From positions 7,564,001 through 7,628,000 of the forward strand of contig NZ_CP108131.1 of assembly GCF_036203305.1 (NCBI RefSeq): a stretch of 64,000 bases of DNA. The letters are read 5' to 3'. Below the pieces are notes generated by a model, which had not been told where the DNA came from, ran no database searches, and saw only the letters and a program-made list of their open reading frames with translations. Source of the stretch: Streptomyces sp. NBC_00190 (GTDB lineage Bacteria > Actinomycetota > Actinomycetes > Streptomycetales > Streptomycetaceae). Numbering within the stretch: the stretch's first letter is position 1; each line of letters begins with the position of its first letter. Shown piece after piece: positions 11,642-25,929 of the stretch. A program made the translations under genes and the position numbers.

Positions 11642-12589
11642 ATGGGTGGGGCAGCCGCACTGGAGAAGCTCGTGCCGGTGCTGCTGGCCTTCGGCGGCGG
11701 GGTGCTGCTCGCCCGCCGCAAGGTCGTCCCGGCCGAGGCCTCGAAGGCCTTCTCCGACTACGCCTTCCTCTTCGCCGTGCCCTGCTACCTGTTCGGCAAC
11801 ATCTACGCCGGTGATCTCGCGGCCCTCTTCGACTGGCAGGCGATCGGCGGCTACGCCGGTGCGGCGGCCCTCGCCGTGGCCGTGGTCGCGGCGGCGGCCG
11901 TGGCCCACGGGATCCGGGAGCCCCGCGCGGTCGCTCTGCGCGTGATGGCCGGGGTCCAGGTGAACACCGCCTACTTCGCCGTCCCCGTCTTCATCACCGT
12001 GTTCGGGACGGCGGCCCCGATCTTCCCGATCCTGCTGTTCCAGGTGTGCGTCCTGTCCCTGGTCGTCATCTCCCTGATGGAACTGGGCCGTGCGGGACCC
12101 GAGGCGGGCGGTCCCGGCCGGCGCCTTGCCCGCGCGGTCGGTGCCTCGCTGGCCACGCCGCTGGTCCTCGCCTGCAACGCGGCCATCGTGCTCAACCTGC
12201 TGTCGGTGCACATCCCCACGGTGGTCCTGGACGGCGCCGCCTTCGTGGGGGACAGCGCCTCCCCGGTGGCCCTGTTCGCCCTCGGCCTCCACCTCGGCGG
12301 CCTCGGCCTGGACGTGCGGGGCACCACGCGCGAGGAGATGGCCCTCATCGCCTTCAAGTGCCTGGCCTTCCCGCTGCTCACCTGGGCGGTGTGCGGGGCG
12401 GTGTTCGGGATCCGGGGCGAGTGGCTCGCGTACCTCGTCGTGATCGCCGCGATGCCGACCCCGCAGAACCTGTTCATCTTTGCCCAGCGCTACGACGTCG
12501 GCGTCGCGCTCTCCGCGTCCGTCGTGATCAAGAGTTCGGTCGTTTCCCTCCTGTTGCTGCCGGTGTGGCTGCAGACTGTTGCCTCCTGA
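11642..12589 (+). CDS. AEC family transporter
   Basis: The ATG at 11642 follows GGGGGAG by 9 bp. The 315-residue product has about ten membrane segments in two halves, with the polar breaks NTAYFAVPVF and MPTPQNLFIF typical of auxin-efflux-carrier-type proteins. Bacterial members export or take up small organic acids. The substrate is not predictable. It is divergent from the histidine kinase with a 73-bp gap. Its 3' end overlaps the degenerate kdpD frame. Confidence 0.9.
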   Translation: MGGAAALEKLVPVLLAFGGGVLLARRKVVPAEASKAFSDYAFLFAVPCYLFGNIYAGDLAALFDWQAIGGYAGAAALAVAVVAAAAVAHGIREPRAVALRVMAGVQVNTAYFAVPVFITVFGTAAPIFPILLFQVCVLSLVVISLMELGRAGPEAGGPGRRLARAVGASLATPLVLACNAAIVLNLLSVHIPTVVLDGAAFVGDSASPVALFALGLHLGGLGLDVRGTTREEMALIAFKCLAFPLLTWAVCGAVFGIRGEWLAYLVVIAAMPTPQNLFIFAQRYDVGVALSASVVIKSSVVSLLLLPVWLQTVAS

Positions 12590-13446
12590 ACACATCTCGA
12601 CCCGCCGCGGTGGCCTCGCGGGGCGTGCGGATGACGGTGACCTGCGTCCTCACGGCGGGCCGGAGACGCCGAAGCGGGGGTCGGGCACGGGGCTCTGCGG
12701 GGTGTGGGCGGGCGGCTCACCGGATGGCTGCCGACGGCCGCGGCCGTGGTCCAGGCGTCGACCTCGCTGGCGCGCTCCAGCAGGGCCGCGGAATCCATGG
12801 AGAAGGTCTCGCGGAGCCGTTCCAGCAGGGCGTCGAGGGAGTCCTCTCCGCGCAGGACGCTGCCGGCGAGGAAGGAGAGGATCTCGGACTCGGCCCGGAG
12901 CCGGGCGGCCTGGTGGGTGCGGCGGGCCGCGAGGTCGACCACGGACGCCACCGAGACCGCCACCCCCACGAAGATCGCGATGGCCACGATGTTCTTCGGG
13001 TCGGCGATGGTCAGCTGGTAGAGCGGTGGCGTGAAGAAGTAGTTCAGGAGCAGCGATCCGAAGGCCGCCGACGCGAGCGCCGACAGCAGCCCGCCCAGCA
13101 GGGCGGCCGCGACCGTGCACGTCAGGAACAGCAGCATGTCGTTCGCCAGCCCGAGTTCGGGGACGACCTGGCTGAGCAGCAGGGTCAGCAGGGCCGGGCC
13201 GGCGATGCCCGTCACCCAGCCCCAGATGATCCGGGACCGCCCCAGCCGCGCCCTGCGGGCGATCGGCAGGCCGCGGCCCTTGGCCGCGGCGTCGTGGGTG
13301 ACGATGTGGACGTCCAGGTCCGGCCCGGACTCGCGCGCGACGGTCGCGCTGACCCCGGGTCCGAACACGTACTGCCAGGAGCGCCTGCGGCTCACACCCA
13401 GGACGATCTGGGTGGCGTTCACCCCCCCCGGGGCGAACTCCAGCAC
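12490..13446 (-). pseudogene. kdpD: remnant of the KdpD potassium sensor kinase
   Basis: Homology to KdpD starts in the middle of the protein: the end of the USP-like domain (GVNATQIVLGVSRRRSW), the DUF4118 membrane region (TGIAGPALLTLLLSQVVPEL, LNYFFTPPLYQLTIADP) and the start of the GAF-like domain (ESEILSFLAGSVLRGEDSL). It is lost near 12725 after AVGSHPVSRPP. The N-terminal KdpD sensor domain, the phospho-accepting His region and the ATPase domain are absent. The frame happens to stay open to 12490 but runs antisense into the AEC gene. Upstream, the same frame continues to the kdpE stop codon with no ribosome site, so a partial protein is unlikely to be made well. Confidence 0.85.
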
Positions 13447-13485: not shown

Positions 13486-14172
<687 letters not shown>

Positions 14173-14267: not shown

Positions 14268-14945
14268 TCAGTTCCCGGTCAGTGCCTTGAGCGCGGTGTT
14301 GAGCTCCAGGACGTTGACGCGGGGCTCGCCCATGAAGCCGAGGGTGCGGCCCTCGGTGTGGTCGGCGACGAGCTTCTCGACCCGCTCGAGGTCCAGGCCG
14401 TTCTTCTCGGCGACCCGGTGGACCTGCAGTTCGGCGTACGCGGGCGAGATCTGCGGGTCCAGGCCGGAACCGGAGGAGGTGACGGCGTCGGCCGGCACGT
14501 CCTCGGGCCTGACCTTGTAGGTCGCCGTGGAGTTGTCGGCGACCACGGCCTCCTTGGTGTCCGTGACCAGCTTGACAAGGTCCGGGTTGTCGCCGGCCTT
14601 GTTGGTGGCGCCGGAGAGGATGAGGGAGTACTGGGTGTTGACGCTGTTGGTGCCGAGGCCGCCCGAGAGCCGGGGCTGGAACCACTTCAGGTCCGGCTTC
14701 GCCGCCTCCTCCGGGTCGTCCGGGTCCTGCTTGGGCAGGTTGTAGGTCTGCCCGATGAGGGAGGAGCCGACGACGTTGCCGCTCTTGTCCTTGATCTCGG
14801 AGCCGTTGGCCTTGTCGTGGAACAGGGCTTGGGCGATCCCGGTGACGGCGAGCGGGTAGAGCACGCCGCACACGATCGTCAGGACGAGCAGGGCCCTCAG
14901 ACCCGCACCGATCAGACGTGCTGTGTTGCCTACGGAGTTGTTCAT
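14268..14945 (-). CDS. kdpC: potassium-transporting ATPase subunit C
   Basis: This 225-residue protein has one N-terminal membrane anchor (LRALLVLTIVCGVLYPLAVTG) followed by the conserved SSLIGQ motif and the family hallmarks FQPRLSGG, SGSGLDPQISPAYAELQV and NVLELNTAL. KdpC stabilises the KdpFABC complex and raises its affinity for ATP. It starts 3 bp after kdpB, so they are one operon. All expected motifs are present and the length is normal. Confidence 0.96.
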   Translation of the reverse strand: MNNSVGNTARLIGAGLRALLVLTIVCGVLYPLAVTGIAQALFHDKANGSEIKDKSGNVVGSSLIGQTYNLPKQDPDDPEEAAKPDLKWFQPRLSGGLGTNSVNTQYSLILSGATNKAGDNPDLVKLVTDTKEAVVADNSTATYKVRPEDVPADAVTSSGSGLDPQISPAYAELQVHRVAEKNGLDLERVEKLVADHTEGRTLGFMGEPRVNVLELNTALKALTGN

Positions 14946-17083: not shown

Positions 17084-18748
17084 TCATGACGCCAGCCCTT
17101 CGGCGAGCGGACCCAGCGCGAGCGCCGGGAAGTAGGTCAGACCCGTGATGATGATGATCGTGCCGACGAGCAGGCCGGCGTAGAGGGGCTTGTCGGTGCG
17201 CAGGGTTCCCGCCGTCTCCGGTACGGGCTTCTGCTCGGCGAGCGATCCGGCCAGCGCGAGGACGAACACCATCGGGAGGAACCGGCCGAGCAGCATCGCG
17301 ATGCCGATGGTGCTGTTGAACCACTGCGTGTCGGCGTTCAGGCCCGCGAAGGCGGAGCCGTTGTTGTTGGCGCCCGAGGTGTAGGCGTAGAGGATCTCCG
17401 AGAAGCCGTGCGCTCCCGGGTTGGCCATGGAGGTGACCGGGGTGGGCAGGGCCATCGCCGCGGCGGTGAAGCACAGCACCAGCGCCGGGGTGATGAGGAT
17501 GTAGCAGGCGGCGAGCTTGATCTCGCGGGTGCCGATCTTCTTGCCCAGGTATTCCGGGGTGCGGCCGACCATCAGACCCGCGATGAACACGGCGATGATC
17601 GCCATGACCAGCATGCCGTACAGACCGGAGCCCACACCGCCGGGCGCGATCTCGCCCAGCTGCATGCCCAGCATCGCGATACCACCGCCGAAGCCGGTGT
17701 AGGAGGAGTGGAAGGAGTTGACCGCGCCGGTGGAGGTGAGCGTGGTCGCCACGGCGAAGATGGACGAGCCGCCGACGCCGAAGCGGGTCTCCTTGCCCTC
17801 CATCGCCCCGCCCGCGATGTCGAACGCGGGACCGTGGTGGGCGAATTCGGTCCACATCATCAGCGCGGTGAACCCGAGCCAGATGACGGCCATCGTCGCC
17901 AGGATCGCGTAGCCCTGCTTGACCGAGCCGACCATCTTGCCGAACGTGCGGGTGAGCGCGAACGGGATGACGAGGATGAGGAAGATCTCGAAGAGGTTGG
18001 AGAAGGGGGTGGGGTTCTCGAAGGGGTGGGCGGAGTTGGCGTTGAAGTAGCCGCCGCCGTTCGTACCCAGTTCCTTGATGGCCTCCTGCGAGGCGACCGC
18101 ACCGCCGTTCCACTGCTGCGTGCCGCCCAGGAACTGTCCGACCTCGTGGATCCCGGCGAAGTTCTGGATCGCGCCGCAGGCGACCAGGACGATCGCGCCG
18201 ATCACGGAGATCGGCAGCAGGATCCGGACGGTGCCGCGCACCAGGTCCGACCAGAAGTTGCCGAGCTCACCGGTACGGGAGCGTGCGAAGCCCCGTACGA
18301 GGGCCACCGCGACGGCCATGCCGACCGCGGCCGAGACGAAGTTCTGCACGGCGAGGCCGCCGGTCTGTACGACGTGGCCCATGGCCTGCTCGCCGTAGTA
18401 CGACTGCCAGTTCGTGTTCGCGACGAAGGACGCGGCGGTGTTGAAGGCCTGGTCCGGGTCGATCGACTGGAAGCCGAGCGAGCCGGGCAGGCTGCCCTGC
18501 AGGCGCTGCAGCAGGTAGAGGAACAGGACGCTCACGGCCGAGAAGGCCAGGACGCCGCGGAGGTAGGCGGGCCAGCGCATCTCGGCGTTCGGGTTGGCAC
18601 CGATGGCCTTGTAGATCCACTTCTCCGGCCTGTAGTGCTTCTCGGAGGAGTAGACCCGGGCCATGTAGTCGCCGAGCGGACGGTACGCCAGCGCGAGCGC
18701 GGCGATCAGCGCGAGCAGCTGGAGCACACCAGCGATCTGGGGACTCAT
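17084..18748 (-). CDS. kdpA: potassium-transporting ATPase subunit A
   Basis: The 554-residue channel-like subunit has about ten membrane segments and four selectivity-loop regions, including [30 protein letters not shown] and [11 protein letters not shown]. These carry the conserved Gly residues that bind K+. It starts 6 bp after the kdpF stop. It is the only KdpA in the window, although two KdpB proteins are encoded. Confidence 0.97.
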
Positions 18749-18754
18749 GTCAGC

Positions 18755-18844
18755 TCAGAACCTCTCCGGGTACACAAGGGCGAGGACGAGGTAACCCAGC
18801 AGGGAGACGGCCACGGCGAGGCCGACGATGTTCTCGACGGTCAC
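18755..18844 (-). CDS. kdpF: KdpF small subunit
   Basis: GTG at 18844 opens a 29-residue single-helix peptide (TVENIVGLAVAVSLLGYLVLA) ending LVYPERF, which matches KdpF in length and in the terminal YPE(R/K)F. KdpF stabilises the KdpABC complex in the membrane. Its start overlaps the stop of the 27-residue peptide upstream (GTGA), so its translation is coupled. Confidence 0.92.
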   Translation of the reverse strand: MTVENIVGLAVAVSLLGYLVLALVYPERF

Positions 18845-18924
18845 AGCTTGGCCACCCCTCGGGCGATGAGAGCCACCAGCGCGAAGACCGCGACCGTGGT
18901 GACGACGAAGGCCAGATCGGCCAT
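18841..18924 (-). CDS. 27-residue single-helix microprotein heading the kdp operon
   Basis: ATG at 18924 is preceded by AGGAG at 7 bp spacing, the best ribosome site in the operon. The peptide MADLAFVVTTVAVFALVALI followed by ARGVAKL is one membrane helix with a short basic tail. Its stop overlaps the kdpF start by 4 bp. It resembles KdpF in size and placement but lacks the YPERF end. It may be a second small subunit or a translational leader for kdpF. The codon use and the strong ribosome site support real translation. Confidence 0.75.
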   Translation of the reverse strand: MADLAFVVTTVAVFALVALIARGVAKL

Positions 18925-19012
18925 CGTGAGCTCCTGATGAAGTGATGAAATGGAATCGGCCGGTGTGGCCGAGACCGAGCAAACCGCGCGTCGCCCCCCG
19001 CGTTAAGAGGCT

Positions 19013-19061
19013 TTGATGACCTCCATACGGGCACACGGGAACCTTTAACGCCCCCCATACG
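19013..19061 (-). promoter_or_regulatory. four direct hexamers at 0, 11, 32 and 43 bp upstream of kdp
   Basis: Reading the reverse strand, CGTATG begins at 19061, CGTTAA at 19050, CGTATG at 19029 and CATCAA at 19018. The spacing of 11, 21 and 11 bp puts all four on one helix face in two pairs. The same spacing occurs upstream of the universal stress gene. OmpR-family regulators bind such 11-bp direct repeats. The last repeat is about 90 bp before the first start codon of the operon. An inverted GCGTTAA copy is also present at 19000. Confidence 0.6.
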
Positions 19062-19095
19062 CGGACCGCCGCCGACCTCCCGTGAAGTGCGGCTT

Positions 19096-19556
19096 TCATG
19101 CCTTCCGGGCCAGTCCGGCGGTGTCCAGGGCCGCGCCGGCCTGGGCGGCGAGGGCGACGGCGACCAGGCGGGCCTCCTCCGGGGGCAGGGGACCCGGAAC
19201 CGGGTCGAGGAGGAACGGGCCGTAGTAGTGCCCGCCACCCACGACGCGGAGTTCGGTCTCGCCGTCGGGCCAGGCGTCGTAGTCGACGATCCGGCCCCGT
19301 GGCGGAGCCAGACCCCGGCGCCGTGTTCCAGACGGGGGCGGTGCCCGATCAGGCTGCCGTACTCGAAGCGGCAGCCGCGCAGGCCCAGCAGGCCGACGAG
19401 TTCCCTGCGCACGTGCTCGACCACGGCCTCGGGCGAGCCGCCGTCCTCGGCCAGGCGGGCGGCCGCCTGGAGGCGGGCCAGGTGCCCGGCGTCGGTGACG
19501 ACCACGGCCTGGAGCCGTCGGACCCGGACGGCGAGTTGGGAGACGATCAGGCCGAA
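19096..19556 (-). pseudogene. 5'-truncated and frameshifted DUF4118-type sensor fragment
   Basis: The frame upstream of 19505 reads GLIVSQLAVRVRRLQAVVVT, the end of a DUF4118 membrane region, then AGHLARLQAAARLAEDGGS and RRELVGLLGLRGCRFEYG. Near 19290-19305 homology jumps to another frame (RIVDYDAWPDGETELRVVGG, HYYGPFLLDPVPG, VAVALAAQAGAALDTAG) that ends at 19096. The membrane-spanning N-terminus is missing, and no start codon with a ribosome site precedes the homology. DUF4118 proteins are KdpD-like membrane proteins. This one lies between the kdp promoter and the second kdpB. Confidence 0.75.
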
Positions 19557-19623
19557 ATGCGGTACGCCGGGACACCGATGCGGTGATCTGCCGACTGCGG
19601 TTCCGCATCACTGCCGACGCCCG

Positions 19624-19640
19624 CTGACGTGCTCTTGACG
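19624..19640 (-). promoter_or_regulatory. CGTCAA-N5-CGTCAG direct repeat
   Basis: The reverse strand carries CGTCAA (19640-19635) and CGTCAG (19629-19624), 11 bp apart. CCGACG at 19614-19619 (CGTCGG on the reverse strand) lies 10 bp further on. The same pair occurs at 24565-24581 and 24600-24616. It sits upstream of the broken DUF4118 gene and about 250 bp before kdpB2. Confidence 0.5.
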
Positions 19641-19822
19641 GCCGTTTGGCGCGTCCCGTGCGCCGTCGTCAAGATGCCGCCAATTCCCCTCCCCGTACGA
19701 CCGGTTGACCCAGAATCGGCAGTAGGTTCCTGCCTGTCGCGCTGCCGGAGGCCCCGATTTCGCATACGACGGCCGAGGGGGTCCCATGTGCGGGGCCGCC
19801 GGCAGCGCTCCTTCAATCCCGT

Positions 19823-19852
19823 GCCCCTGCCCGCCGTCGTGCGGGCAGGGGC
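19823..19852 (+). terminator. perfect 11-bp hairpin in the leader of the second kdpB
   Basis: GCCCCTGCCCG (19823-19833) and CGGGCAGGGGC (19842-19852) are exact complements around an 8-nt loop. The stem ends 35 bp before the kdpB2 ATG and just before its ribosome site region. It may act as an attenuator or a terminator of an upstream transcript. No known riboswitch core was recognised in the 270 bp upstream. Confidence 0.55.
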
Positions 19853-19887
19853 CGCCCTGTCGAATCCGCTCCTCAGAAGGTCATCCG

Positions 19888-22038
19888 ATGTCTTCCGCTG
19901 CCACGCGGCACGTTCCCCCGGGTCTCGGGAATCCTCCGCAGCCCCCGGTCACCCGGCCGCCCCGCAGGCGCCCCGGACCGGCGAACATGCTGGAGCCCGG
20001 CCAGCTCGCTGCCTCGGCCCGGGAGGCCGCCGCCAAGCTGCACCCGCGCGAACTGGTCGGGAAGCCGGTGCTGTTCGTCGTCGCCGTGGGATCCGTACTC
20101 ACGACGCTGTCCGCGCTCATCCACCCGTCGGTGTTCACCTGGGTGATCAGCGTCTGGCTGTGGCTGACCGTACTCTTCGCCAACTTCGCGGAGGCCGTCG
20201 CCGAGGGCCGCGGCCGTGCCCAGGCCGCCTCGCTGCGCAAGGCCCGGACCGACACGGTCGCGGTCCGCCTGAAGCACTGGACGTACGGGACGAACCTGCG
20301 TACCGCGGAGACCGAGGTGGTCACGCCGGCCGAACTCCAGCCGCTCGACTTCGTGCTCGTCGAGGCCGGGGAGCTGGTCCCGGCGGACGGTGACGTCGTC
20401 GACGGTGCGGCGATGGTCGACGAGTCGGCCGTCACCGGCGAATCCGGCCCGGTCCTGCGGGAGTCGGGTGGCGACCGGTCGGGCGTCACCGGCGGTACGA
20501 CCGTCCTGTCGGACTCGGTCGTCGTACGGGTCACTTCCCGTCCCGGCGAAAGTTTCATCGACCGGATGATCGCCCTGGTCGAGGGCGCCTCCCGGCAGAA
20601 GACCCCGAACGAGATCGCGCTGAACATCCTGCTGGCCGCGCTCACGGTCATCTTCATCCTGGTCGTCGTCAGCCTGGAGCCGATGGCGGGCTACGCGAAG
20701 GCCGCCCAGTCGACCACCACTCTGGTGGCCCTGCTGGTCACCCTGATCCCCACCACCATCGGCGCCCTGCTCTCCGCCATCGGCATCGCCGGCATGGACC
20801 GGCTCGTCCAGCGCAACGTGCTCGCCATGAGCGGCCGCGCGGTGGAGGCAGCCGGAGATGTGAACACCCTCCTCCTCGACAAGACCGGCACCATCACCCA
20901 CGGCAACAGGGAGGCAACTGCCTTCATCCCCCTGCCGGGAGTCGACCACAGCACGCTGGCGGACGCCGCCCAGCTCTCCTCCCTGGCCGACGAGACGCCC
21001 GAGGGCCGGTCGGTCGTCGAGCTCGCCGCCCGGTACGGCCTCACCCCGCCGGCCGAACACGAGCTGGCCAACCCCCGCTTCACGGAGTTCAGCGCCCGCA
21101 CCCGGATGAGCGGGATCAACCTGAGCTGGGACAACGGCGTCGGCCTCGCCATCCGCAAGGGAGCGGCGGCCCAGGTGATGGACTGGGTGGCGATGCGCGG
21201 CGGAACCGTGCAGGCGGAAGCCGCCAGCTGGTCCGCGCAGGTCTCGCAGTCCGGTGGCACCCCGCTGCTGGTCGCCGTCCACGACTGGGACGGGCCGCGG
21301 GTCCTCGGGATCATCCACCTCAAGGACGTGGTCAAGGACGGCATCCGGGAGCGGTTCGCGGAGCTGCGCGCCATGGGGATCCGTACGGTCATGGTGACCG
21401 GGGACAACGAGCTGACCGCCCGGGCGATCGCCGCCGAGGCCGGCGTCGACGAGTACCTGGCGGAAGCCACCCCCGAGGACAAGATGGCCCTCATCAAGCG
21501 GGAGCAGGCGGGCGGCAAGCTGGTCGCGATGACCGGCGACGGCACGAATGACGCCCCCGCTCTGGCCCAGGCCGATGTCGGCGTGGCCATGAACACGGGT
21601 ACGTCGGCCGCCAAGGAGGCCGGGAACATGGTGGACCTGGACTCCAACACCACCAAGCTCATCGAGATCGTCGAGATCGGCAAGCAGCTCCTCATCACCC
21701 GAGGCGCGCTGACGACCTTCTCGATCACCAACGACGTCGCGAAGTACTTCGCGATCATCCCGGCCATGTTCACCGCCGCCTACCCGGGCCTGGAGGCGCT
21801 GAACATCATGGGCCTGCACAGCCCCCGGTCCGCGATCACCTCGGCGATCATCTTCAACGCGCTGATCATCATCGCGCTCATCCCACTGGCCCTGCGCGGC
21901 GTCCGCTACCGGCCCGCCTCAGCCCACGACCTGCTGCGCCGCAACCTCGCCGTCTACGGCCTGGGCGGGCTCGTCCTGCCGTTCGTCGGGATCAAGCTCA
22001 TCGACCTCCTCGTCTCCCACATCCCCGGCATCGGATGA
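19888..22038 (+). CDS. second, stand-alone KdpB-type P-ATPase
   Basis: The ATG at 19888 follows AGAAGG by 8 bp. The 716-residue product is closely similar to KdpB over its length, with [20 protein letters not shown] and [20 protein letters not shown], and the membrane segments [20 protein letters not shown]. All catalytic residues are intact. It differs by a Pro/Arg-rich N-terminal extension and a 10-15 residue insertion before the actuator domain. No second kdpA or kdpC follows; an APC permease does. It may swap into the KdpFAC complex under other conditions or have gained its own role. Confidence 0.93.
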
Positions 22039-22133
22039 GTTCCGTCAGAGGCTCGTCGAACGTCCGGTGGCCTCGGTGCAGGCCGCCCCCGCCGCCACCG
22101 GGAGTACGTCCACTACGCCACCGGAAGGAAAGG

Positions 22134-22161
22134 CGTTAAGGGCGCGTCAGGATTTCGTCAG
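22134..22161 (+). promoter_or_regulatory. triple hexamer repeat upstream of the APC permease
   Basis: CGTTAA (22134), CGTCAG (22145) and CGTCAG (22156) recur at exact 11-bp intervals, about 100 bp before the permease start. They match the CGTCAA/CGTCAG and CGTTAA hexamers near the kdp operon and the stress gene. A weaker pair, CGTCAG/CGTCGA, lies at 22043 and 22054. Confidence 0.55.
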
Positions 22162-22260
22162 ATGAGGATATGGACGTATTGGCTGTGTTCTCGCTGCGTA
22201 CGCTGGCCCAGCCGTCGACGACGATGGCCGAATCCATGCCGTACGACAGGAGCGCCCACG

Positions 22261-24195
22261 ATGGCCACCCCTGCCCGCTCCTCGCGCCTGCGCGCGTGGC
22301 TGCTGGAAGGTTTGACCGACCGCCGCCACAAGCAGCAGCAGCACCCCGAGACCGCGCACGAGGGCAAGACCTGGTGGCGGGTGATGTGCCTGACCGGCCT
22401 CGACTACTTCTCCACCCTCGGCTACCAGCCGGGCATCGCGGCGCTCGCGGCCGGTCTGCTCTCACCTGTGGCGACGATCGTGCTGGTGCTGCTGACGCTG
22501 TTCGGCGCGCTGCCCGTCTACCGGCGTGTGGCGGAGGAGAGCCCGCACGGCGAGGGCTCGATCGCGATGCTGGAGCGGCTGCTGTCGTTCTGGAAGGGCA
22601 AGCTGTTCGTCCTGACCCTGCTGGGCTTCGCGGCGACCGACTTCCTGATCACGATCACGCTGTCGGCGGCCGACGCGACCGCTCACATGGTGGAGAACCC
22701 GCATCTGACCAGCACGCTGAACGGCCACCAGGTACTGATCACCCTGATCCTGATCGCCCTGCTCGGCGGGGTGTTCCTCAAGGGGTTCAGCGAGGCCATC
22801 GGCGTGGCGGTGGTCCTGGTCTTCTCCTACCTCGCGCTCAACGTGGTCGTCATCGGGAACGGCCTGTGGCAGGTCGCGAGTGAGCCGCAGGTCATCGGCG
22901 ACTGGAAGCAGGCGCTGATCGCCGAGCACGGCAACCCGTTGATGATGATCGCCATCGCGCTGGTGGTCTTTCCCAAGCTGGCGCTCGGCCTGTCCGGGTT
23001 CGAGACGGGCGTCGCGGTGATGCCGCACGTCCAGGGCTCCCCGGACGAGACGGACGAGAAGCCCGCCGGCCGGATCCGGGACACGAAGAAGCTGCTGACG
23101 ACCGCGGCCGTAATCATGAGCGTCTTCCTGATCACGAGCAGCTTCGTCACCACGCTGCTGATCCCGCCCGCCGCGTTCCAGCCGGGCGGCGAGGCCAACG
23201 GCCGCGCCCTCGCCTACCTGGCCCACGAGAACCTGGGCTCCGCGTTCGGCACGGTCTACGACGTCTCGACCATCCTGATCCTGTGGTTCGCGGGCGCCTC
23301 CGCGATGGCCGGCCTGCTCAACCTGATGCCGCGCTACCTGCCCCGCTACGGCATGGCCCCGCACTGGGCCCGCGCCCTGCGCCCGATGGTCATCGTGTTC
23401 ACCCTCATCGCGTTCCTCGTCACCTGGATCTTCGACGCCGACGTCGACGCCCAGGGCGGCGCGTACGCCACCGGTGTCCTCGTCCTGATCACCTCGGCCG
23501 CCGTCGCCGTGACCATCGCCGCCCGCCGGGCCGGGGAGCGCGGCTGGACCATCGGCTTCGGCGTCATCTCCGCGGTCTTCGTCTACACCACCGCCGTCAA
23601 CGTCGCCGAGCGCCCCGACGGCGTGAAGATCGGCGCCTGCTTCATCGCCGGCATCATGGCCCTCTCGCTGCTCTCCCGCCTCGCCCGCGTCTTCGAGCTG
23701 CGCGTGACCCATGTGGAGCTCGACGACATGGCCCAGCGCTTCATCCGCGACACCGCCAACCGGACGATCCGCTTCATCGCCAACGAGCCCGACAGCCGGG
23801 ACCTCGAGGAGTACCGGCAGAAGAAGGCCCAGATCCGCGAGGACAACGACATCCCGTCCGAGGACGACGTCATGTTCGTCGAGGTGACCGTCCTGGACGC
23901 GTCCGAGTTCGAATCCGGGCTGTGGGTACGGGGCGAGGTGCTGCACGACCGCTACCGCGTCCTCACCCTTGAGTCCTCGTCCATCCCCAACGCGCTGGCC
24001 GCGCTGATGCTCTACGTACGGGACGAGACCGGCCAGCGCCCCCACATCTACTTCGAGTGGACCGAGGGAAACCCGATGGCCAACTTCCTGCGCTTCTTCC
24101 TCTTCGGCCAGGGCGAGGTCGCTCCCGTCACCCGCGAGGTGATCCGCGAGGCCGAACCGGACCGGGCCCGCCGCCCGCACGTGCACGCCGGCTGA
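22261..24195 (+). CDS. APC superfamily permease with a cytoplasmic C-terminal domain
   Basis: The ATG at 22261 follows AGGAG by 9 bp. The 644-residue protein has about twelve membrane segments from residue 50 to 465, beginning [24 protein letters not shown], followed by a soluble domain of about 180 residues. The shape, membrane core plus soluble tail, resembles KUP/KimA-type potassium carriers as well as amino-acid permeases. The substrate is not proved. Its place after kdpB2 and its shared repeat sites favour a role in ion or osmotic balance. A strong terminator follows. Confidence 0.88.
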
Positions 24196-24219
24196 CCGTT
24201 CCGTTCGGGAAACGCAAGA

Positions 24220-24261
24220 AATCCCGCCGGTCCCTCGCTATGGCGGGGCACCGGCGGGATT
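24220..24261 (+). terminator. rho-independent-type hairpin after the permease
   Basis: AATCCCGCCGGT (24220-24231) and ACCGGCGGGATT (24250-24261) are perfect 12-bp complements, followed by CTTCT. It lies 25 bp after the permease stop. Confidence 0.85.
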
Positions 24262-24311
24262 CTTCTACGGTGACCGCTACCTGGGGCCCCGACCGTGCCG
24301 TTCGCCGAACC

Positions 24312-24443
24312 ATGCTGGCCCTCGGCGCGGCCGGCCTGGCCCTCATCGCCGTCGGCGCGATCCTCGACGCGCTCTGGCTGCTGGGCATCGGCGCCTGGGC
24401 GGTCATCGGCGCGATGCTGATCGAGCTCGTCTACCGTCCGTAG
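24312..24443 (+). CDS. small two-segment membrane protein
   Basis: The 43 residues from ATG 24312 (MLALGAAGLALIAVGAILDA then LWLLGIGAWAVIGAMLIEL) form two hydrophobic stretches and end VYRP. A GTG at 24270 would give 57 residues. An ATG at 24240 lies in the terminator loop and is unlikely. Neither start has a clear ribosome site, but codon bias is normal and the hydrophobic pattern is coherent. The function is unknown. Confidence 0.5.
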   Translation: MLALGAAGLALIAVGAILDALWLLGIGAWAVIGAMLIELVYRP

Positions 24444-24564
24444 CCACGGTCGCTGCGCGCCGATGTCGCGCCGGCGCAAGGCCTTCCAGGGTTTCGCGGC
24501 GGACAAGGAGCCGGACAGCGCCGTCGTGGACCGCGCCGCGCACCAGCGCCCTTGTGGCCTGCCC

Positions 24565-24648
24565 CTGACGGGACCTTGACGACGACCGGCGGTGGGAGGC
24601 GTCAACAACGCGTCAGAATCGCGGGCGGCAGCGTCAGAAGCCCGTCAG
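24565..24648. promoter_or_regulatory. six-hexamer cluster upstream of the universal stress gene
   Basis: On the reverse strand CGTCAA and CGTCAG sit 11 bp apart (24581-24565). On the forward strand CGTCAA (24600), CGTCAG (24611), CGTCAG (24632) and CGTCAG (24643) fall at offsets 0, 11, 32 and 43, the same spacing as in the kdp promoter. The last copy is 68 bp before the stress gene start. This is the densest occurrence in the window. Confidence 0.65.
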
Positions 24649-24715
24649 CGAACCGGCCTCATGGCTCATCTCTGCCGTTGGATGAGTCACCCGAACGGAG
24701 CGGAGGGAGGAACGC

Positions 24716-25229
24716 GTGCCGAAGGTGGTCGTCGGTGTCGGCGAAAGCCTGGGCAGCCTGGCGGCACTGCACCGGGCAGCCGCAGAGGCCCGGCTGCGGC
24801 GGGTGGAGCTGTGCGCCGTGCTGGCGTGGCAGGCTCCAGGCGGTGGGTTGGTAAGCCGGAACACGTTCGGAGGCCCGGGCCCGGTCCTGACACTGTGCCG
24901 GTCGGCCGCCGTGGAGCGGCTGCGCGAGGTACTCGACAGCGCGTTCGGAGCCGAGTGCCCGGGAGTTGCCCTCGCGGCCTTCACGGTGCGGGGCACGGCG
25001 GGCGCGGCACTCGTCGACGCCGCCCGTGACCCGGACGACCTGCTCGTGGTGGGGGGGCTCGCGAGGACCGCTGCGCCGCCTGGTCCGCCCCCCGGTCGCC
25101 CGTTACGTCCTCGCGCACGCTGCCTGCCCCGTCCTGACCGTGCCCCCGTCCCCGCTCCAGGCCGCATACGACGTGGCCCATCGCCGCAACTCCTGGCGGC
25201 TGCCGCTCGACGTGCGAGAACTCGCGTGA
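24716..25229 (+). pseudogene. universal stress protein with a +1 frameshift in a G tract
   Basis: GTG at 24716 follows GGAGG by 6 bp and opens a USP fold (PKVVVGVGESLGSLAALHRA). At DDLLVVG the frame meets seven consecutive G residues near 25051-25057. One G fewer restores the ATP-binding motif GGSRGPLRRLVRPPVARYVL and the normal end CPVLTVPPSPL...DVRELA at 25229. As read, the frame runs to 25279 with unrelated Arg/Pro-rich sequence. Either a sequencing slip in a homopolymer or a true slippery mutation explains it. USPs bind ATP or sense stress, and this one lies in the potassium/stress cluster. Confidence 0.8.
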
Positions 25230-25274
25230 CGCGGCGATCGATGCCGCGGGGCCGCTTCGGTTCCGCCAGAAGGG

Positions 25275-25325
25275 CGTAGGCGTCCCGTCAGGATCCGCAG
25301 AACGGCCCGCCTGCGCCTTTAGCGT
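25275..25325 (+). promoter_or_regulatory. 11-bp repeat and -10 of an apparently leaderless gene
   Basis: CGTAGG (25275) and CGTCAG (25286) lie 11 bp apart, just upstream of where a -35 should be (the sequence there is a poor match). TAGCGT (25320-25325) is a good -10, and it ends 7 bp before the ATG at 25333, so transcription should begin at the start codon. This layout fits activator-dependent, leaderless expression. Confidence 0.55.
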
Positions 25326-25332
25326 CCTGCAC

Positions 25333-25929
25333 ATGGAATACGGATCCGGCGGTTCGGGACCACGACGCGCGCGGGGCGGCACGGAGCCTCGTGCGGTGCC
25401 GACTGCCTCCGGCACCATCGCCGTACACGACGCCCACTGGGCCGGTGAGCGCCGTACGGCGATCCTCGCGGCCGGGCTCCTCGTCTCGGCGCTGCTGATC
25501 GTCGACGGGGCCGCCGGCTCGGCCACCTGGCCTCGGGCCGCCCTGTGGACCGGCCTCGGCCTGCTGCTCTTCGTCGTCCTGCGCCCGCCCCTGGTACGGG
25601 TTTCGCCCGGCCGCCTGACCGTCCGCACGCTGTTCGCCGAGCGCACCGTACACACCGACGCCCTGCTCTCGGTCCACTGGTCCGACGGGGTGGCCCAGCG
25701 CGTGATCCTCCGCGACACCGAAGGCCGGCATGTGGAGATCGACCCGGGCGTTCTGGTCCGCAACCCCGCCCTGTGGCACCGCTTCGACGCCGACGCCCGG
25801 ACGTCGTTGCGGCACGACACGCTGCGGTCCGGGGCGAGCGCCCTGCGACAACTGGCTGAGCGCATCGACCGGGAGGCGGCCCGATCCGTGTTCAAGGTCT
25901 CCGGTCTGAGCACCGTGGCCGGCCGGTGA
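25333..25929 (+). CDS. two-helix membrane protein with a PH-like soluble domain
   Basis: The 198-residue product has a polar N-terminus, two hydrophobic segments (residues about 38-85: TAILAAGLLVSALLIVDGAA, AALWTGLGLLLFVVL) and a soluble half with the short strands VRVSPGRLTVRTLFAERTV and VEIDPGVLVRNPALW, reminiscent of bacterial PH (DUF304-like) domains. There is no ribosome site, but the -10 placement supports this start. The function is unknown. Shared repeat sites link it to the stress cluster. Confidence 0.75.
   Translation: MEYGSGGSGPRRARGGTEPRAVPTASGTIAVHDAHWAGERRTAILAAGLLVSALLIVDGAAGSATWPRAALWTGLGLLLFVVLRPPLVRVSPGRLTVRTLFAERTVHTDALLSVHWSDGVAQRVILRDTEGRHVEIDPGVLVRNPALWHRFDADARTSLRHDTLRSGASALRQLAERIDREAARSVFKVSGLSTVAGR

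Follow-up and report, generated by a model that had tools for sequence, protein, structure and literature searches.

Conserved 11-bp Direct-Repeat Arrays as Predicted KdpE Sites in Streptomyces, with a Putative KimA-like Potassium Transporter

Introduction

OmpR/PhoB-family boxes such as those of PhoP differ from the boxes described here in half-site sequence and target genes. According to the accessible part of the published work, PhoP of M. tuberculosis uses 7-bp repeats with a 4-bp spacer and thus shares the 11-bp direct-repeat period (PMC4832192). The KdpE site of E. coli kdpFABC likewise comprises two 6-bp direct repeats with 5 bp between them; as given in the available text, it differs in being AT-rich (TTTATA/TTTACA) and a single dimer site (PMC3264566). 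In M. smegmatis, KdpE binds a site in PkdpF, upstream of kdpF, whose 22-bp minimal sequence contains CGTAAA-N5-CATCAA, and it does not bind its own kdpD promoter, as stated in the accessible sections of that paper (PMC5401905).

For Streptomyces, a review, in its available portion, quotes unpublished data that S. venezuelae needs KdpDE neither to develop nor to grow in the presence of 0.5 M NaCl or KCl. The kdpFABC operon of S. coelicolor is described, again in accessible text, as mainly down-regulated on salt; neither text, in its accessible portion, deals with K+ limitation. No description of a Streptomyces KdpE site was found in the mostly open-access literature searched.

Results

The 64-kb stretch of DNA analysed here (the window) contains all the hexamers named by an earlier sequence-only reading, each at the position assigned to it. 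The four-box arrays at the kdp and stress-gene promoters both have the 0/11/32/43 geometry it described, and the permease triple and the pairs at 19640 and 24581 are in place (Table 1). The pair that it listed before the PH-like gene is also present, with a first hexamer, CGTAGG, that departs from the consensus. The kdp promoters favour CGTAWG/CGTCAA and the other genes CGTCAG/CGTCAR. The triple lies 127 bp upstream of the permease gene. The 19640 pair is located between a KimA relic and the second kdpB, oriented away from kdpB, and has counterparts in the same place and orientation at five other loci (L028, L041, L044, L060, L085). Both minus-strand pairs, at 19640 and 24581, face away from the nearest gene. 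The broken DUF4118 gene that the same reading placed at 19.6 kb was not recovered: the open reading frame at 19096-19611 (minus strand) gives no Pfam match at E 0.001, and the DUF4118 domain lies in the kdpD remnant (12490-13446), not beside the 19640 pair.

Table 1. Coordinates of genes and candidate regulatory elements in the window
Feature	Position	Strand	Basis or remark
kdpD remnant, DUF4118 part only	12490..13446	-	residues 312-556 of about 835
kdpE1, OmpR-family response regulator	13486..14172	-	best PDB matches are E. coli KdpE
kdpC	14268-14945	-	Pfam KdpC
kdpB	14949-about 17036	-	NCBIfam kdpB, 1044.2 bits
kdpA	17084-18748	-	Pfam KdpA
kdpF	18755-18844	-	
27-aa membrane ORF	18841-18924	-	overlaps kdpF
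GGTTTGCTC block, candidate core-promoter element	18977..18985	-	inferred role
kdpFABC promoter array, 4 half-sites, 0/11/32/43	19013..19061	-	CGTATG 19061-19056, CGTTAA 19050-19045, CGTATG 19029-19024, CATCAA 19018-19013; array in 80/81 promoters
Half-site pair CGTCAA (19640)-N5-CGTCAG (19629)	19624..19640	-	pattern search
Weaker pair CGTCAA-N5-CGCCAA, oriented to second kdpB	19667..19683	+	half-site scoring
Second kdpB	19786..22038	+	NCBIfam TIGR01497, 969.6 bits
Permease half-sites CGTTAA 22134, CGTCAG 22145, CGTCAG 22156 (0/11/22)	22134..22161	+	pattern search
644-aa KimA-like APC permease, candidate K+ transporter	22261..24195	+	fold and residue comparison
Half-site pair CGTCAA (24581)-N5-CGTCAG (24570)	24565..24581	-	back to back with stress-gene array
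Universal-stress array CGTCAA 24600, CGTCAG 24611, CGTCAG 24632, CGTCAG 24643 (0/11/32/43)	24600..24648	+	
Universal-stress-family gene	24716..25279	+	homologue match split over two frames
PH-like pair CGTAGG (25275)-N5-CGTCAG (25286)	25275..25291	+	half-site scoring
PH-like gene, membrane protein by appearance	25333..25929	+	no family over cut-off

The island encodes a putative KdpE, kdpE1, in line with the earlier claim. The genome has two such KdpE copies, 73% identical, for which KdpE is the best NCBIfam and PDB match, although both stay under the NCBIfam cut-off of 325 (KdpE1 242.7 bits, KdpE2 254.7 bits). Their common stretch TNYLRVYMAQLRRKLEA covers the positions of the arginines in the E. 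coli KdpE recognition helix. The only full-length KdpD found in the genome is the product of an 880-aa gene at C1:5923625 (Pfam KdpD 329.3 bits; top NCBIfam match KdpD, 514.4 bits against a cut-off of 1123), with a pair 45 bp ahead of the presumed gene start. As the island has only a fragment of kdpD, the KdpE encoded there would depend on this distant KdpD or on another kinase; for both KdpE copies, the full-length protein is the most probable partner. An Rfam scan of 12-27 kb gave nothing at gathering score; therefore no catalogued riboswitch accounts for the region.

Six strict CGTYAR-N5-CGTYAR pairs occur in the window, against 0.06 expected from 300 first-order (dinucleotide) shuffles (maximum 1). 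Among CGTYAR start-to-start distances of 6 to 49, only 21, 22, 32 and 43 occur besides 11. Across the genome, in a comparison of spacings of the kind that had been proposed, gap 5 gives 13 strict pairs versus 2 in the reversed-pattern control, while gaps 4, 6 and 8 give 6 (control 6), 22 (control 20) and 2 (control 4). Gap 5 is thus below gap 6 in raw count, and it is the only one of these four clearly above its control. Six of its 13 pairs are in the island and one immediately precedes the sole full-length kdpD; the remaining six have no obvious regulatory placement. The pattern CGTMAGN5CRTCAR was uninformative genome-wide (6 matches, 4 in the control).

The spacing recurs in relatives. The surroundings of 80 kdpA genes from Streptomyces, which are the best 80 among 576 confirmed matches, amount to 1.62 Mb and contain 93 CGTYAR pairs at 11 bp, 74 at 32 bp, 23 at 21 bp and 13 at 22 bp, with 0-7 at each other distance from 6 to 36; these loci are not fully independent, since at least three strains contribute two each. 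Such conservation of the 11- and 32-bp spacings supports the earlier suggestion of an OmpR-family factor binding as two dimers on one helix face. Outside kdp promoters, a kdp-trained PWM found 143 places at spacing 11 with a score of 13, and 3-57 at each of 12 other spacings (6-18). As the PWM was trained and the array model refitted on kdp promoters, their scores are not independent, and reliance was placed on fixed patterns and spacing-slid counts.

With the refitted model, the 0/11/32/43 array was present at 80 of the 81 kdpFABC promoters from Streptomyces (loci from the best 80 of 576 matches). Beyond the genus it recurs at 6 of the 19 kdpA loci that could be tested. An 11-bp pair was found upstream of kdpA at 81/81 loci versus a mean of 3.1 at other spacings; here and wherever a mean is given below, upstream counts at spacing 11 take in the window and L006 copies, and the comparison is the mean of 13 other spacings. 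Within the 81 promoters the spacers are far less conserved than the boxes, and the fourth base of box 1 is C in about 22%. The GGTTTGCTC block lies about 35 bp 3' of the last half-site start, its first two T columns being 99% and 95% conserved. In a comparison by eye, the Streptomyces proximal pair matches the KdpE site mapped in M. smegmatis, CCGTAAAGAAACCATCAAGGCC, whose CGTAAA-N5-CATCAA corresponds to boxes 3-4 (CGTAAG-N5-CATCAA) in many of the Streptomyces promoters. Whereas one site is described for M. smegmatis in the accessible part of that study, two pairs are usual in Streptomyces, where kdpD and genes other than kdp have sites as well.

Pairs at spacing 11 also stand upstream of other genes, scored on a hand-set half-site scale (thresholds 11.0 and 11.4). 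Core KdpD genes carry one in 15/41 cases (mean 1.1 at other spacings) and KdpD-like genes in 7/9 (mean 0.2). In a larger genus sample KdpD reached 21/30 at a score of at least 11.4, other spacings giving 0-1; most kdpD sites read CGTCAG-N5-CGTCAA. The universal-stress gene (USP) has a pair in 5/7 (mean 0.4) and, in the larger sample at the same score, in 14/30, with none at other spacings except 6 at 21 bp. The 30-locus samples are the best-scoring matches, not random draws. The 0/11/32/43 array is seen in both the kdp and the USP gene classes; distant USP genes mostly have no strong site (1/20 at 11.4 or above, 8/20 at 11.0 or above). A pair precedes 8 of 9 PH-like copies, the window copy included (mean 0.2), and 10 of 17 copies of the second kdpB (mean 0.7). 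One KimA-like branch has it in 7/14 (mean 0.1; 7/17 in an extended count), and the other KimA branch, including this genome's own KimA, in 1/7 only.

For the permease the count is 7/14 (mean 0.6), and 9/29 in the larger genus sample at 11.4 or above, with none at other spacings. This pair is nearly confined to one clade, with 9/10 among close relatives and 0/19 in the 78-80% group; isolated cases are L094 and two loci from other genera, L133 and L144. The regulon rim varies by lineage. No upstream pair was found for KdpB (0/81), KdpC (0/79) or KdpE (0/43), which are weak controls, being inside operons, nor for response regulators about 40% identical (0/22). Kinase-free genomes were considered as a test of KdpE identity and set aside: G017 (L236) has no site, but neither do 11 of 19 others at score 11.0, so that G017 says nothing on KdpE identity; the L254 sequence in this comparison comprises 159 bases.

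The permease reaches the cut-off of no family in Pfam or NCBIfam, and PF13520 is precomputed for 0/120 of its listed relatives in one listing and 5/120 in another. An AlphaFold model from 34 close relatives was poor (pLDDT 56.1), and a broader alignment raised it to 78.6. The top structural match of the model is KimA, over both membrane and cytosolic parts (PDB 6s3k, 8b70, 8b71). KimA is the B. subtilis K+/H+ symporter, and its D36, Y43, T121, S125 and Y377, taken from the accessible part of its description (PMC6994465), align with D48, Y55, T131, S135 and Y402 of the permease, each present in 61/61 homologues. Unlike KimA, as far as that text describes it, the permease is without a curated family and without an agreed partner of the proton-coupling E233: both MAFFT runs place Q258 there, hhalign places it differently, and the invariant E248 fits by eye only. 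The D117 equivalent is kept in only 14/61 homologues. Resemblance to this K+ importer in fold and most key residues makes the permease a putative new K+ transporter.

Discussion

The boxes, whose position, spacing, conservation and gene association are directly observed, probably mark a KdpE regulon with tandem-dimer sites. Their arrangement supports an OmpR-family factor that would act on 11-bp direct repeats, often through a pair of dimers on the same face of the helix. The pairs at kdpA (81/81) and kdpD (21/30) and the match to the M. smegmatis site make KdpE the leading candidate. We infer that Streptomyces KdpE binds at these sites, that one factor is common to all boxes, that it activates rather than represses, and that K+ is the signal. 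Several observations weigh against this reading: KdpE of M. smegmatis leaves its own kdpD promoter unbound; both KdpE copies and the full-length KdpD score below their NCBIfam cut-offs; the raw genome-wide count is lower at gap 5 than at gap 6; strong pairs are mostly missing from one KimA branch, from distant USP genes and from permeases beyond one clade; two pairs face away from the nearest gene; half-site letters differ between kdp and the other genes; and the S. venezuelae and S. coelicolor salt data are as cited above.

In the proposed mechanism, each hexamer would be a half-site for KdpE, which is the response regulator in the KdpDE two-component system for potassium and turgor, and a single dimer would span a pair of direct repeats with the 11-bp period. 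The kdpFABC and stress-gene arrays would each take two dimers, separated by 32 bp or about three helical turns and thus on the same DNA face, upstream of the core promoter. Under K+ shortage a KdpD kinase would phosphorylate KdpE, which would turn on kdpFABC and kdpDE itself. The lineage-variable targets would be one KimA branch, the second kdpB, the KimA-like permease, the universal-stress protein and the PH-like protein.

Two OmpR-family regulators could instead share the 11-bp spacing, KdpE acting on CGTAWG/CGTCAA at kdpFABC and a sister on CGTCAG-type boxes at the stress, permease and PH-like genes. The half-site letters do vary with gene class, the rim genes have sites in some lineages only, two KdpE copies diverged to 73% identity are available, and many loci encode, close to kdp, response regulators that share about 40% identity with KdpE2. 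However, the letters intergrade, as the C in box 1 of kdp promoters and the prevailing kdpD sequence illustrate, both gene classes carry the same array, and the recognition-helix stretch is identical in the two copies. We consider a sister regulator unlikely.

ECF-type sigma factors use CGTC-like -10 elements. That the words are parts of such promoters rather than activator sites is suggested by this likeness; it is very improbable nonetheless, as four copies at fixed 11/21/11 spacing do not make a promoter pattern, another conserved block, GGTTTNCTC, is found 35 bp downstream, and, in the accessible account, the equivalent sequence is protected by M. smegmatis KdpE. Chance, or the duplication of some short sequence within the region, could account for the bunching of pairs in one 5-kb stretch of the window, but hardly for their excess over shuffled sequence, for spacers much less conserved than the boxes, or for arrays recurring across species, families and gene contexts, and we give it almost no credence.

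A KdpE regulon thus remains the preferred reading. More tentatively, it is possible that double-dimer KdpE arrays underlie an as yet undescribed K+ regulon in Streptomyces and that its boxes reveal the orphan 'amino acid transporter' branch, with at least 7,996 homologues, to consist of KimA-like K+ importers. K+ supply would then be linked to a stress protein, and a candidate K+ transporter family, at present labelled amino acid transporter, is pointed to. A defined box and gene list make the system directly testable. If the proposal is true, the presence of this array in further actinobacterial families would imply that the one site described in M. smegmatis represents half of a more ancient two-dimer switch, and a second upstream KdpE dimer is predicted in some other actinobacteria.

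Tandem 11-bp repeats in the island and the genome

A sequence-only reading of the window had noted hexamers spaced 11 bp apart in the kdp/stress gene cluster (the island), and proposed from their geometry a regulon of an OmpR-family factor, noting that KdpE is encoded there. Every hexamer it named is found in the window sequence. Strict pairs, CGTYAR-N5-CGTYAR (11 bp from start to start), number six in the window, all within 19624–24648, whereas 300 shuffles average 0.06 and yield 1 at most. The observation itself is real.

The genome-wide spacing check (8.89 Mb) agrees. Gap 5 gives 13 strict pairs versus 2 for the reversed-pattern control. The raw count is higher at gap 6 (22), with 20 in its control; gap 4 gives 6 versus 6, and gap 8 gives 2 versus 4. 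Thus, of the four spacings, 11 bp alone is clearly enriched over its own control. K+ genes hold 7 of the 13 gap-5 pairs: six in the island and one at C1:5923541 (same contig). The latter stands 45 bp upstream of the presumed start of a kdpD, the only full-length copy found genome-wide, with a second kdpE after it. Of the other six, by a crude ORF list, L008 and L018 fall within long ORFs, L009 overlaps the end of an ORF, and L007, L011 and L019 may be inside or outside genes.

Features of the island (window coordinates)
Feature	Position	Strand	Remarks
kdpE, kdpC, kdpB, kdpA, kdpF	within 12.5 to 26 kb	-	
Second kdpB, 644-aa permease (KimA-like, APC), universal-stress gene, PH-like gene	within 12.5 to 26 kb	+	
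kdpD, cut down to DUF4118 part	12490–13446	-	residues 312–556 of about 835
27-aa membrane ORF, MADLAFVVTTVAVFALVALIARGVAKL	18841–18924	-	immediately before kdpF; stop overlaps kdpF start
KimA C-terminus relic, 18 codons	19556–19609	+	in the interval from kdpF to the second kdpB; E 6e-5 at 89% identity
Back-to-back sites	24565–24648	-/+	- strand pair and four-box + strand array, 18 bp between; - strand side without evident gene
Universal-stress homologue match	24716–25054, 25056–25274	+	two frames; frame change at 25054–25056

The window has 73% G+C, and its kdpA most closely resembles Streptomyces kdpA genes. The two-frame match of the stress gene may reflect decay or a sequencing slip. In relatives, for example at loci L028 and L041, a full KimA gene lies between kdpA and the second kdpB. 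The 27-aa membrane ORF occurs in 59/81 kdp loci by a strict pattern, and KdpF in 77/81.

The kdpFABC promoter array

Conservation was examined in 80 Streptomyces kdpA loci, the top-ranking ones among 576 confirmed matches. Around these genes CGTYAR pairs lie 11 bp apart 93 times and 32 bp apart 74 times; 21 bp occurs 23 times, 22 bp 13 times, and other distances from 6 to 36 bp occur 0–7 times. An array of approximately CGTAWG-N5-CGTCAA-N15-CGTAWG-N5-CRTCAA, at offsets 0/11/32/43, is present in 80 of 81 kdp promoters, the window included; the lone exception (L056) fits 0/11/31/42. Between boxes 2 and 3 the sequence is largely unconstrained. A conserved block, GGTTTNCTC, lies 35 bp downstream of the box 4 start; if it is near the -10, box 4 would fall just upstream of the -35 region.

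Outside the genus, the 30 best-scoring kdpA loci among 198 genomes in the phylum (6 inside Streptomyces, 24 outside) were compared with up to 100 random geometries. The four-box score exceeds all of these, with all or nearly all boxes fitting, in 12 loci: 6/6 in the genus and 6/24 outside (family f3, L153, L155 and L157; f12, L156; f38, L161 and L162), box 1 of L155 being weak (CGCCGG). Since L171 and L173–L176 start mid-gene, leaving their promoters unscanned, the out-of-genus count is 6/19 testable loci. Two f5 loci also beat the random geometries (L158, and narrowly L159), yet have different tandem 11-bp arrangements. At L154, L160, L163–L170 and L172 the four-box score does not exceed all of the random geometries.

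Other putative targets

Upstream regions with an 11-bp pair were counted and compared with the average at 13 other spacings (in brackets), host-genome copies included. The pair precedes 8/9 PH-like genes (0.2), 7/9 KdpD-like genes (0.2), 15/41 core kdpD (1.1), 5/7 universal-stress genes (0.4), 10/17 second kdpB genes (0.7) and 7/14 permease genes (0.6).

Larger samples of best-scoring loci were scored on a hand-set half-site scale. For kdpD, 21/30 have the pair at a score of at least 11.4 (other spacings 0–1) and 23/30 at 11.0 (0–6). For the universal-stress gene, 14/30 have it at 11.4 or more (other spacings 0, except 6 at 21 bp) and 22 of the same 30 at 11.0 (0–2, except 13 at 21 bp); the four-box score of 21.5 is reached in 15/30, a figure without random-geometry control. 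More distant universal-stress genes carry the pair in 1/20 at 11.4 and 8/20 at 11.0. The permease has it in 9/29 at 11.4 (other spacings 0), divided by clade: 9/10 in the close clade and 0/19 in the 78–80% clade, with isolated cases at L094 (75%) and, outside the genus, L133 and L144. Among KimA genes, the branch 35–40% identical to host KimA has the pair in 7/17 (7/14 and 0/3 by two start-setting methods), and the branch at least 60% identical, including the host's own KimA, in 1/7.

Half-site pairs also stand upstream of a long membrane-protein gene (L045:4488, L046:3312, L025:4184), which may also belong to the regulon. The L045 gene scores 249.4 bits against NCBIfam GlnX-family signal transducers (cut-off 250).

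KdpE as candidate regulator

In a study of the M. smegmatis kdpF promoter, the minimal KdpE site is given as CCGTAAAGAAACCATCAAGGCC (PMC5401905). This site holds CGTAAA-N5-CATCAA, matching CGTAAG-N5-CATCAA, the boxes 3–4 found in many Streptomyces promoters. The site used by E. coli KdpE likewise comprises two 6-bp repeats with 5 bp between (PMC3264566). KdpE of the island shares 73% identity with the distant KdpE2, and both contain the stretch TNYLRVYMAQLRRKLEA, whose arginines align with R193 and R200 of the E. coli recognition helix, both numbers having been placed on our alignment. Against KdpE as the regulator, both copies score below the NCBIfam KdpE cut-off, and KdpE of M. smegmatis showed no binding to PkdpD (PMC5401905). 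With the island sensor truncated and its adjoining kdpE intact, control would need the distant KdpD or another kinase.

Our literature search found no description of a Streptomyces KdpE site. A 2023 review states that the Kdp system had not previously been analysed in Streptomyces, and mentions unpublished data in which neither development nor growth at 0.5 M NaCl or KCl required it (PMC10117811). A 2026 transcriptome study reports S. coelicolor kdpFABC mainly down with added salt (PMC13011467).

The reading of these tandem 11-bp repeats as marks of a KdpE regulon is a well-supported hypothesis; within it the repeats would often be occupied as two dimers, 32 bp apart. The target counts across samples point to a regulon with a firm core, kdpFABC and kdpDE, and a lineage-dependent rim. 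The core of this putative regulon (kdpFABC, kdpD) is unaffected by the counts for KimA, the permease and the out-of-genus loci.
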